Of a stretch of 64,000 nucleotides of DNA, positions 18,997 to 36,008 are shown in pieces. Position 1 is the first letter of the stretch. Each line of letters begins with the position of its first letter. The DNA comes from Buttiauxella gaviniae (lineage in GTDB: Bacteria > Pseudomonadota > Gammaproteobacteria > Enterobacterales > Enterobacteriaceae): positions 3,472,001 to 3,536,000 of the forward strand of contig NZ_JBFMVT010000002.1 in assembly GCF_040786275.1 (NCBI RefSeq), written 5' to 3'. The notes below the pieces were generated by a model. The model had not been told where the DNA came from and ran no database searches. It worked only from the letters and a program-made list of their open reading frames with translations. Both the position numbers and the translations under genes were made by a program.

Positions 18997-19369
18997 TCTG
19001 TTTTATCCATGCGTTATTTTGTTTTATATAGTTATGAAACTTGTTGAGTTTATGTGTTTTTAACGGCATTTAACAAAAGTAAATATTTTTAGCTAGTTAT
19101 ACACGTAAAGCTGACGGGTGCCAATTTATTATATCGGCTGAGGCTTTGTTTATGGCTATATAATATTCAGGAGGTGTTATTAGCTTCTGTTGGAAAGTAA
19201 TTAAAAATGTTGTGATTATGTTTTTACTAATTGGTCAAAATAATAATCCTTTAAATATATCACCCCGGCAGATTAGGCGTTTAAACAGCAGTCAGCCATG
19301 AGAGGTTTACAGAACGCAAAGGGGGCTTTATTCTGGACGGCGATTAATCATCTTTATGATTTCTCGATG
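18997..19369. other. Intergenic region before the thi riboswitch
   Basis: About 370 AT-rich bases between the divergent binding-protein gene and the thiM leader. It should carry both promoters. No gene, repeat or clear operator was found. Confidence 0.5.
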
Positions 19370-19495
19370 ACTCGGGGTGCCCTTCTTTGTGAAGGCTGAG
19401 AAATACCCGTACCACCTGATCTGGATAATGCCAGCGTAGGGAAGTCAGATGCCTGCCAGGTCATCCCTTCTTCACGCCGGGCAGGAGCTTTTACG
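19370..19495 (+). promoter_or_regulatory. TPP riboswitch (THI element) of thiMD
   Basis: The aptamer signature is complete. CTCGGGGTGCCC begins at 19371; GGCTGAGAAATACCCG, ACCTGATCTGGATAATGCCA and GCGTAGGGAAG follow, ending near 19446. The order and sequence match the E. coli thiM riboswitch. The rest of the leader to the start codon forms the expression platform and includes the GCAGGAG ribosome site (19481-19487). Thiamine pyrophosphate binding should hide this site and repress thiM and thiD translation. Confidence 0.96.
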
Positions 19496-33362: not shown

Positions 33363-34262
33363 TTAACCGAGCAGCGGGCAATTTGGCGGCAGGCGGCAGT
33401 TCAGCGCACTGGGATGGACATCAATGCGGAATTTCTGGCCGGTCAACGGTTCGCCATCCAGGTTGAAGGTGATGTCGTGCGGGGCGGTTATCTCAAACCA
33501 TGATGAACGTCCATCAATAATATTTGGGCTGTCGTCCGGGCGCGTGAGGGTGTTAAAGATGGCGGGCAGCAGCTCTTCGCCGGTAAAAATTCGCAGCTCC
33601 AGCAGCCCGTCGTTAATCAGCGCCTGGGGGCAAAGTTCTTGCCCACCGCCAGCCTGACGGCCATTACCGATGCCAATCACCAGCGCATCACCTTGCCATT
33701 CGAAACCCTCGCCGCGAATTTCACAGCGATCGGGTTTAAGGGTATCCATGCGAATCAGGCCGTGAACGAAATAGGCGATCCCGCCCAGCGCGGCTTTCAG
33801 TTTTTCCGGTGTTTCGGTGGTAATACGCGTTCCAAAACCGCCGGTCGCCATATTGATAAAGAAGGCGGATTCGTTCACCTGCACAAGATCGATAGCCGTC
33901 CCTTTCCCGACAATCGCGAGCTGCAACGCTTTGTCCAACTCCTGCGGAATACCGACGCTGGTGGCAAAATCGTTGGCGGTGCCTAATGGCAGAATCCCCA
34001 ATACCGGGCGATGTTCAGGAGCAAGTTGCGCCAGCGCGGTTGCCACTTCGTTTATCGTGCCATCTCCGCCGCCTGCCACCACGGTTGCAGCGCCCATCCG
34101 GGAGGCTTCTTCGACATAACGAATCGCATCACCTTTTTCCCAGGTGACACGAATATGTAACGTGTATCCCTCATCACGCATGACGTTAACTGCGCTGCGT
34201 AAGGTTTCATTTTCGGCACCTTTGCCGTTTAGGATGACGAACGTTACCGGAAACTGCTCCAT
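33363..34262 (-). CDS. yegS: Lipid kinase YegS
   Basis: A 299-residue lipid kinase related to diacylglycerol and sphingosine kinases. The nucleotide-binding signature [13 protein letters not shown] is near residue 62, [13 protein letters not shown] near 88, and the C-terminal domain holds the catalytic stretch [13 protein letters not shown]. coli YegS phosphorylates phosphatidylglycerol in vitro; its physiological lipid is unknown. Length and sequence follow E. coli YegS. It stands alone between the ABC transporter operon and cyaR. Confidence 0.94.
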
Positions 34263-34351
34263 GGCACACCTCTGGAAAAATAGTTGAATTCTGAGTGTAC
34301 CGTATGTGCGGGATTTGCGGGTAAGAACAGGCTGAGTCTGCGGGGTGTAGC

Positions 34352-34562
34352 AAAAAAGAAGGCCTGTGAAAGGGAGATTTCACAGGCCAATGAGGTGGTT
34401 CCTGGTACATATCCGTCATACTTCAAATTGCAGATGTGTTGGCTTTCCTCGTTCACCCCCGTCACTTACTTGAGTAAGCTCCCGGGGATTCACTGCGTCG
34501 CCGCTTTTCTACAATGCGAATTATTCGGATACAGCTAGCATTTATGGGTTATGTTTTTCAGC
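34352..34562 (-). ncRNA. cyaR: CyaR small RNA, interrupted by an ERIC element
   Basis: The 5' part begins GCTGAAAAACATAACCCATA at 34562 and reaches CTAGCTG, matching E. coli CyaR. The 3' part resumes with TGTACCAGGAACCACCTC, the region that pairs with ompX, nadE and luxS mRNAs in E. coli. It ends in the terminator hairpin GGCCTGTGAAA/TTTCACAGGCC followed by a T-run ending at 34352. Between the two parts lies a 122-bp ERIC element. Without it the RNA would be 89 nt, against 87 in E. coli; with it, 211 nt. Promoter, seed and terminator all look intact. It lies downstream of yegQ as in E. coli. Confidence 0.88.
34410..34531 (-). repeat. ERIC element inserted in cyaR
   Basis: A 122-bp imperfect palindrome with ends TATCCG (34410-34415) and CGGATA (34526-34531). 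It contains the diagnostic core GTGAATCCCCGGGAGCTTAC and AAGTAAGTGACGGGGGTGAA on the minus strand, the two segments on which the classical ERIC primers are based. ERIC elements insert at TA; TA is present at both junctions here. Confidence 0.9.
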
Positions 34563-34568
34563 CCGGCG

Positions 34569-34611
34569 ATAATAACCGCATCCAGCGAAGCGGTATGTGA
34601 TCGATTTCTAA
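34569..34611 (-). promoter_or_regulatory. cyaR promoter with candidate CRP site
   Basis: On the minus strand TATTAT (34569-34574) stands seven bases before the expected CyaR 5' end at 34562. A CRP-like sequence, with TGTGA at 34596-34600 on the plus strand and a poor second half TCTAA at 34607-34611, is centred 41.5 bases upstream. That is exactly the class II activator position. E. coli cyaR is known to require CRP-cAMP. The second half-site is poor. Confidence 0.6.
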
Positions 34612-34646
34612 GAAATCTCTTACCGTGAAAAAATAACCTAAATGAA

Positions 34647-36008
34647 CTAGTTAGCGTGCGGATCGCGAGAGGTCTGACCGGATAAATTGCGCATCAGCAG
34701 CGCATAATCCAGGGACACATCTTGCGGCACAGGCATCCATACGGTGTGCCCATCGCCCGGCGCTACATCAATCGGCTGCGCTTTACCGTTTTCCAGCACT
34801 TCAAGCGTGAAAGTGACGTTACCTTGCGGAGTCATTAATTCCAGGCTGTCACCCAGCAAGAATTTATTTTTTACTTTCACTGCGGCTAAATCGCCGCGAC
34901 GCTCGCCGGTAAATTCCCCGACAAACTGCTGAGTTTCTGAGACAGAATGACCGTAATCGTAATTCTGATAAGAATCGTGGTTATGGCGACGCAGAAAACC
35001 TTCGGTGTAGCCGCGGTGCGCCAGGCCTTCCAGCGTGGTCAGCAGAGTAGGGTCGAATGGCTTGCCTGCTGCGGCATCTTCAATCGCACGGCGATAAACC
35101 TGAGCGGTACGTGCGCAGTAATAATAGGACTTGGTACGGCCTTCGATTTTCAGCGAGTGCACGCCCATTTTGGTCAGACGTTCTACGTGTTCAATGGCAC
35201 GCAGGTCTTTGGAGTTCATGATGTACGTGCCGTGCTCGTCTTCAAACGCCGTCATGTATTCGCCAGGACGTTTGGCTTCTTCGAGCATAAAGACCTGGTC
35301 GGTCGGTGCGCCCGCACCCAGGGTTGGCTCAATGTTTTTCACCGGAATTGGCTCGTGAAGATGGACGATATTACCGACATCATCTTCTTTGCCTTCTTCA
35401 ACTTTATATTCCCAGCGGCAGGCGTTAGTGCAGGTGCCCTGGTTTGGGTCGCGCTTGTTGATGTAGCCAGAAAGCAGGCAGCGGCCAGAGTAGGCCATGC
35501 ACAGCGCGCCGTGAACGAAGATTTCCAGTTCCATCTCTGGCACTTGTTCGCGCACTTCAGCGATCTCTTCAAGGGAGAGTTCGCGGGAAAGAATCACGCG
35601 AGTCAGGCCCATTTGTTTCCAGAATTTCACGGTCGCCCAGTTTACGGCGTTCGCCTGTACGGACAGGTGAATGTCCATTTCCGGGAAGGCTTCACGAACC
35701 ATCATGATTAAACCAGGGTCGGACATAATCAGCGCGTCCGGGCCCATATCAATTACCGGTTTCAGGTCACGGATAAAGGTTTTCAGCTTCGCGTTGTGCG
35801 GGGCAATGTTAACAACCACATAGAATTTTTTACCCAGCTCATGGGCTTCGTTGATGCCGAGCTGTAAGTTTTCGTGATTGAATTCGTTATTGCGCACGCG
35901 CAGGCTGTAACGCGGTTGGCCTGCGTAGACGGCATCGGCGCCGTAGGCGAAAGCGTAACGCATATTTTTCAGCGTTCCGGCAGGCGACAGGAGTTCTGGT
36001 TTAAACAT
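34647..36008 (-). CDS. yegQ: tRNA 5-hydroxyuridine modification protein YegQ/TrhP (U32 family)
   Basis: A 453-residue member of the U32 'peptidase' family, the same length as E. coli YegQ (TrhP), which takes part in prephenate-dependent formation of 5-hydroxyuridine at position 34 of tRNAs. The N-terminal barrel starts PELLSPAGTLKNMRYAFAYGADAVYAG. The iron-sulfur cysteines appear in HGALCMAYSGRCLLSGY and GTCTNACRWEY near residues 169-198. SLKIEGRTKSYYY is near 285. It is cytosolic. The cyaR gene follows it. Confidence 0.94.
   Translation of the reverse strand: MFKPELLSPAGTLKNMRYAFAYGADAVYAGQPRYSLRVRNNEFNHENLQLGINEAHELGKKFYVVVNIAPHNAKLKTFIRDLKPVIDMGPDALIMSDPGLIMMVREAFPEMDIHLSVQANAVNWATVKFWKQMGLTRVILSRELSLEEIAEVREQVPEMELEIFVHGALCMAYSGRCLLSGYINKRDPNQGTCTNACRWEYKVEEGKEDDVGNIVHLHEPIPVKNIEPTLGAGAPTDQVFMLEEAKRPGEYMTAFEDEHGTYIMNSKDLRAIEHVERLTKMGVHSLKIEGRTKSYYYCARTAQVYRRAIEDAAAGKPFDPTLLTTLEGLAHRGYTEGFLRRHNHDSYQNYDYGHSVSETQQFVGEFTGERRGDLAAVKVKNKFLLGDSLELMTPQGNVTFTLEVLENGKAQPIDVAPGDGHTVWMPVPQDVSLDYALLMRNLSGQTSRDPHAN

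Follow-up and report, generated by a model that had tools for sequence, protein, structure and literature searches.

The window, by which we mean the whole 64,000-nucleotide stretch of Buttiauxella gaviniae DNA analyzed here, contains a single cyaR gene on the minus strand of the yegQ-yegS gap, and this gene is split by a 122-bp ERIC (Table 1). Read along the minus strand, the 5' part of CyaR is followed by the ERIC, a TG dinucleotide, the seed block, the terminator stem and a T run ending at 34352. Scanning the window with the Rfam CyaR model (RF00112) gave 60 bits for the 3' half of the gene at 34431-34356(-), where the gathering score is 47, and a sub-threshold 22.9 bits for the 5' half at 34564-34518(-). 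Sequence and Rfam matches thus agree with the first-pass annotation, which had described a cyaR gene divided by a 122-bp ERIC at this position. Counted from G34562 through the last T of the run, the gene measures 211 nt, the figure given in that annotation, compared with 87 nt for an uninterrupted CyaR. We take G34562 to be +1 by analogy with the start of Escherichia coli CyaR, and the CRP-like 16-mer, a candidate site, is then centered at -41.5. Compared with the CRP consensus, its right half (TCACA) is a good fit and its left half (TTAGA) a poor one. This site, the -10 box, the seed and the 11-pair terminator are all intact, as had been claimed.

Table 1. Features of the interrupted cyaR locus and its flanking genes (window coordinates)
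Feature	Position	Strand	Basis
yegQ-type gene, upstream of cyaR	34647..36008	-	Pfam PF01136, PF16325 (Peptidase_U32)
CRP-like site, 16-mer TTAGAAATCGATCACA	34596..34611	-	Sequence; spacing identical in 12/12 species
-10 region TTATTAT	34569..34575	-	Sequence; present in 12/12 species
CyaR 5' part, 31 nt	34532..34562	-	Sub-threshold Rfam match (22.9 bits); conserved in the genus
ERIC within cyaR, TATCC...GGATA, 122 nt	34410..34531	-	Fold z -5.95; genus-wide family copies; clade with G003 and G006
CyaR seed block CCAGGAACCACCTCATTGG	34387..34405	-	Rfam match (60 bits); 0/19 columns variable in the three full-ERIC species
Seed core ACCACCTC	34399-34392	-	Intact, inside the seed block
CyaR terminator, 11-pair stem and T run	34352..34388	-	Terminator scan (stem 34388-34361); 11/11 pairs in 12/12 species
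yegS-type gene, downstream of cyaR	33363..34262	-	Pfam PF00781, PF19279

The upstream Peptidase_U32 gene is presumably yegQ. A simple sigma-70 scan of 34300-34700 called no promoter and so missed that of cyaR itself; no promoter or terminator newly arising inside the ERIC was called, by the same scan that misses the cyaR promoter. A second intact cyaR elsewhere in the genome, named beforehand in the first-pass annotation as grounds for regarding the locus as a remnant, was looked for and none was found. Elsewhere in the window, a TPP riboswitch lies at 19363-19459 (+), with 72.9 bits.

The name ERIC, that of a dispersed repeat family of enterobacteria, is given to the repeat by its resemblance to the ERIC consensus. 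ERIC-type matches were found in all 12 Buttiauxella genomes, with 44 reported in the window genome. The ERIC stretch has a predicted folding energy of -45.6 kcal/mol (z-score in Table 1), and none of 200 shuffles folded as well. Covariation in the ERIC stem was considered as proof of selection and rejected, since 95.8% of cells pair, yet 161 of 500 shuffles match that value and the comparison holds three sequences.

Distribution of the insert and its origin

Exactly one cyaR above the Rfam cut-off is present in each of the 12 Buttiauxella species examined. The full ERIC, at the same site and in the same orientation, occurs in three of them, namely the window species (G000), G003 and G006, and the interrupted gene measures 211 nt in each. 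One further species, G001, has a net insert of 35 nt (122 versus 87 nt) in which both ERIC ends are kept and the middle is absent; the remainder is predicted to form a hairpin and folds somewhat better than shuffled sequence, a weak signal (z -2.09, with 6 of 200 shuffles as good). The other eight species have no insert. Because two further species share the identical arrangement at the identical site, a chance arrangement can be dismissed. Comparison of the yegQ-yegS gap among relatives, which the first-pass annotation had proposed, recovered the same ERIC site in two more species but also eight of 12 species without it. The suggestion that the element might be a widespread structural part of the RNA across the genus is not supported, with a full copy in 3/12 species, a remnant in 1/12 and none in 8/12: the ERIC is not a genus-wide structural part of CyaR.

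Beyond these genomes, an exact gapped pattern searched in one genome per species, an approach that diverged flanks would escape, matched only B. massiliensis and B. agrestis and nothing outside Buttiauxella. A search for an ERIC in E. coli cyaR found no locus with 80% query coverage in any of 5,426 genomes. In a family-level survey, 251 of 392 genomes gave a CyaR match; when 26 low-scoring matches were re-examined, 25 covered model positions 1-85, and sequence was inspected for 22 of the 26, so that interruptions elsewhere in the family might escape this set. The remaining low scorer, G176 from another genus, has a match limited to model positions 36-85. Judged by eye, its cyaR (L024, L177) is cut directly before the seed by an IS-like insert with a transposase, and four short patterns found no CRP-like site in the 3.1 kb of L177.

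In a tree of 66 ERIC rows, the three copies within cyaR form one clade against 63 other sampled Buttiauxella copies (support 99/90); of the 464 matches tallied, 70 were sampled, chiefly those that matched one cyaR copy best. Letters common to the three occur in just 1, 1, 2 and 4 of the 63 others. The carriers themselves are scattered, requiring four changes on the gyrB+rpoB tree, on gyrB alone and on rpoB alone, and four on each of three flank trees, with three for the full ERIC alone. A single carrier clade is rejected by the AU test on gyrB+rpoB (p-AU 2e-67 for four rows, 0.0016 for three). This scatter would be expected if the identical site were an insertion hotspot that had taken up ERICs separately in several species. 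Such a hotspot concerns the origin only and is compatible with any of the functional readings below. Against it stand the 99/90 clade with its rare shared letters and the sameness of position and orientation. The gyrB and rpoB trees also conflict with each other, which indicates that the genus recombines, so that carrier scatter is weak evidence and AU tests on the joined data need care. We regard repeated entry as very improbable and consider it likely, from the sequence comparisons, that the ERIC entered cyaR once. Given the scattered carriers, one old insertion requires several losses or exchanges, and losses from an ancestral insert, or exchange of short tracts, are possible sources of the pattern. 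The insert is probably old rather than recent, because the three ERIC copies differ at 18 of 122 columns.

The junctions bear on the target site. Those of the G001 remnant read GCTA...TATACC, as a TA target would give, and those in the window, GCTG/TATCC...GGATA/TGTACC, can be read as a TG or TGTA duplication equally as well as TA. The uninterrupted genes of G008 and G009 read GCTATACC, and the left-side A is common to three of the four carriers; the A in the G008 and G009 sequence may be the original target or a trace of loss. Elsewhere in these genomes, ERIC loci with shared flanks are identical across species (L111, L121 and L143 in G006, G001 and G002; L110 and L120 in G006 and G001). Either exchange in recent times or strong conservation could explain these identities, which favor exchange within the genus.

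Constraint, predicted folding and target pairing

Set against the 18 of 122 variable columns in the ERICs of G000, G003 and G006, the promoter pieces, 5' part, seed block and terminator together vary at 6 of 107 (Fisher P 0.019, for regions picked post hoc with the data already seen), and the 19-nt seed block varies at none. The neighboring yegQ sequence shows a mean difference of 13%. All 11 terminator pairs are kept across all alleles, and G001, despite its remnant, retains promoter, seed and terminator. The terminator alleles of the ERIC carriers are found in ERIC-free species too and so cannot date the insert. Conserved cyaR parts beside a diverged ERIC support retained function, at the level of sequence, although they do not prove it; if exchange delivered the insert recently to some species, the conservation would tell less. 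Two of 29 columns in the 5' part vary among the three full-ERIC species, and relaxed constraint there was considered and dropped, as the altered letters are predicted to be able to pair with the 5' end.

The 3' side of the gene varies in its neighbors. Phage-type genes follow the cyaR terminator in G001 (L050), G010 (L042), G004 (L048) and G005 (L049). Immediately 3' of cyaR, G001 and G010 carry an Ogr-like regulator family (phrog_603) and a tail protein (phrog_52), G004 carries a baseplate gene and G005 carries phrog_1651. In the cyaR-yegS gap of G003 (L051), G002 (L047) and G007 (L045) we found an autotransporter-domain protein, a beta-eliminating-lyase protein and a 160-residue ORF. The 3' end of cyaR looks like a hotspot of gene gain. 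In E. coli W, K-12 and B, cyaR is among the listed sites of P2-type prophages (PMC3032704), and prophage integration at cyaR could swap terminator alleles.

In the predicted folds the ERIC closes on itself, and the 5' element, seed and terminator adopt the arrangement of the uninterrupted RNAs. The proposal that a long stem could be tolerated because the 5' element and seed are brought together at its base fits these models. Folding with and without the ERIC, a check proposed at the outset, predicted similar seed opening in carriers and uninterrupted relatives, with a cost for ACCACCUC of 0.93-1.15 kcal/mol with the ERIC, 0.49 with the remnant and 0.42-2.77 in the eight uninterrupted species. 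The ompX gene was located in all 12 species, GAGGTGG precedes its start in every one, and the CyaR seed, with ACCACCTC intact, is complementary to this putative ribosome-binding site. Calculated as a seed-only duplex at 37 °C in 11 of the 12 species (G009 was left out because its cyaR is identical to that of G008), the predicted net pairing with ompX was -9.0 to -10.8 kcal/mol with the ERIC versus -7.5 to -10.6 in seven of the eight uninterrupted species. Totals were positive in 10 of 12 species, ERIC carriers and others alike, in an earlier duplex calculation that let helices bridge long loops. The corresponding pairing in Yersinia is between CyaR ACCACC and ompX GGUGGU (PMC11795201).

The sequence GAGGTGGT, complementary to the CyaR seed, also precedes the starts of two further genes in all five genomes searched, one transporter-like (L148, L149, L152, L156, L163) and one small membrane-protein-like (L151, L158, L160, L162, L164). 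These resemble yajR and yebO, respectively, and are possible further CyaR targets by sequence complementarity.

Function of the interrupted RNA

We favor a reading, to which we assign a probability of about 0.68, in which the Buttiauxella lineage acquired an ERIC within cyaR, most likely in a single event, and the insert, lying between the 5' element and the conserved seed, was tolerated by a modular sRNA that still works. Tolerance would follow if each module (promoter, 5' end, seed, terminator) acts regardless of precisely how far the first 31 nt lie from the seed. CRP-cAMP would drive a 211-nt RNA in which the ERIC folds on itself as a long arm, with the 5' element and the seed joining at its base; the seed would be roughly as accessible as it is in the 87-nt form, the terminator and U tail would be free for Hfq, and the RNA would then pair with the ompX ribosome-binding site.

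An insert of such size usually breaks an RNA gene, and the G176 cyaR, cut by its IS-like insert, could be an instance, so the gene might be dead in the ERIC carriers and persist as a slowly decaying relic. We consider this unlikely, given that the inserts have diverged at 18/122 columns and yet the seed block has not changed and every terminator pair is kept, that the remnant-bearing G001 retains promoter, seed and terminator, and that the window genome has no second cyaR to relieve constraint. It is similarly doubtful, although conceivable, that RNase E or RNase III cuts the ERIC arm to leave a working seed-first 3' fragment of about 55-60 nt including the terminator, in the manner of ArcZ, which RNase E trims to 55-60 nt (PMC11331407). 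The 3' end of the ERIC lies immediately in front of the seed. For Yersinia transcripts, reviews describe that the 3' terminal repeat of an ERIC can present a site for RNase E, in an orientation-dependent manner (PMC2229807, PMC10969869). With as little confidence we entertain recruitment of the arm, either as a long structure that protects or slows the RNA or as a site of processing from which a seed-first fragment is freed; were this true, a core regulatory sRNA would in some species have a mobile element as one of its working domains, and in others that element would have shrunk to a short hairpin or been lost.

Apart from the 122-nt ERIC between 5' part and seed, which makes it 211 rather than 87 nt long, the gene resembles CyaR (RyeE, RF00112) in its CRP-like site, 5' end, seed ACCACCUC, terminator, place after yegQ and complementarity to ompX. 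The 5' region of CyaR varies across E. coli, Salmonella and Yersinia and the seed is conserved (PMC11795201), and this variability between genera makes a tolerated insertion there plausible. Yersinia CyaR likewise has an extra predicted hairpin upstream of an unchanged seed, although, as that source describes it, a short genus-specific sequence (PMC11795201) rather than an ERIC insert as in Buttiauxella. Palindromic elements lie within the tmRNA and RNase P RNA genes of Rickettsia, perhaps neutrally (PMC2229807); they too place a palindromic repeat within an RNA gene, but the element, the RNAs and the phylum class are different, and the passages of PMC2229807 on this case concern no regulatory sRNA. 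The Coxiella sRNAs CbsR3, CbsR13 and CbsR16 are MITE-derived (PMC5896051), and there, as here, a MITE contributes to an sRNA transcript; in Coxiella, however, it creates the sRNA, whereas the Buttiauxella ERIC interrupts an older, conserved one. The Yersinia ERIC transcripts also carry the repeat within a longer RNA, but these are mRNAs, as far as PMC2229807 and PMC10969869 describe them, and not an sRNA gene. Our searches of open-licence PMC papers turned up no description of a known sRNA gene with an ERIC in it.

Related Buttiauxella species hold the same sRNA in three forms, uninterrupted, with a short hairpin or with an arm of 122 nt, and so offer a natural test of modularity. If all forms work, no fixed spacing is needed between the 5' end and the seed; if the long form acts differently from the others, a conserved regulator has been rewired by a mobile repeat.
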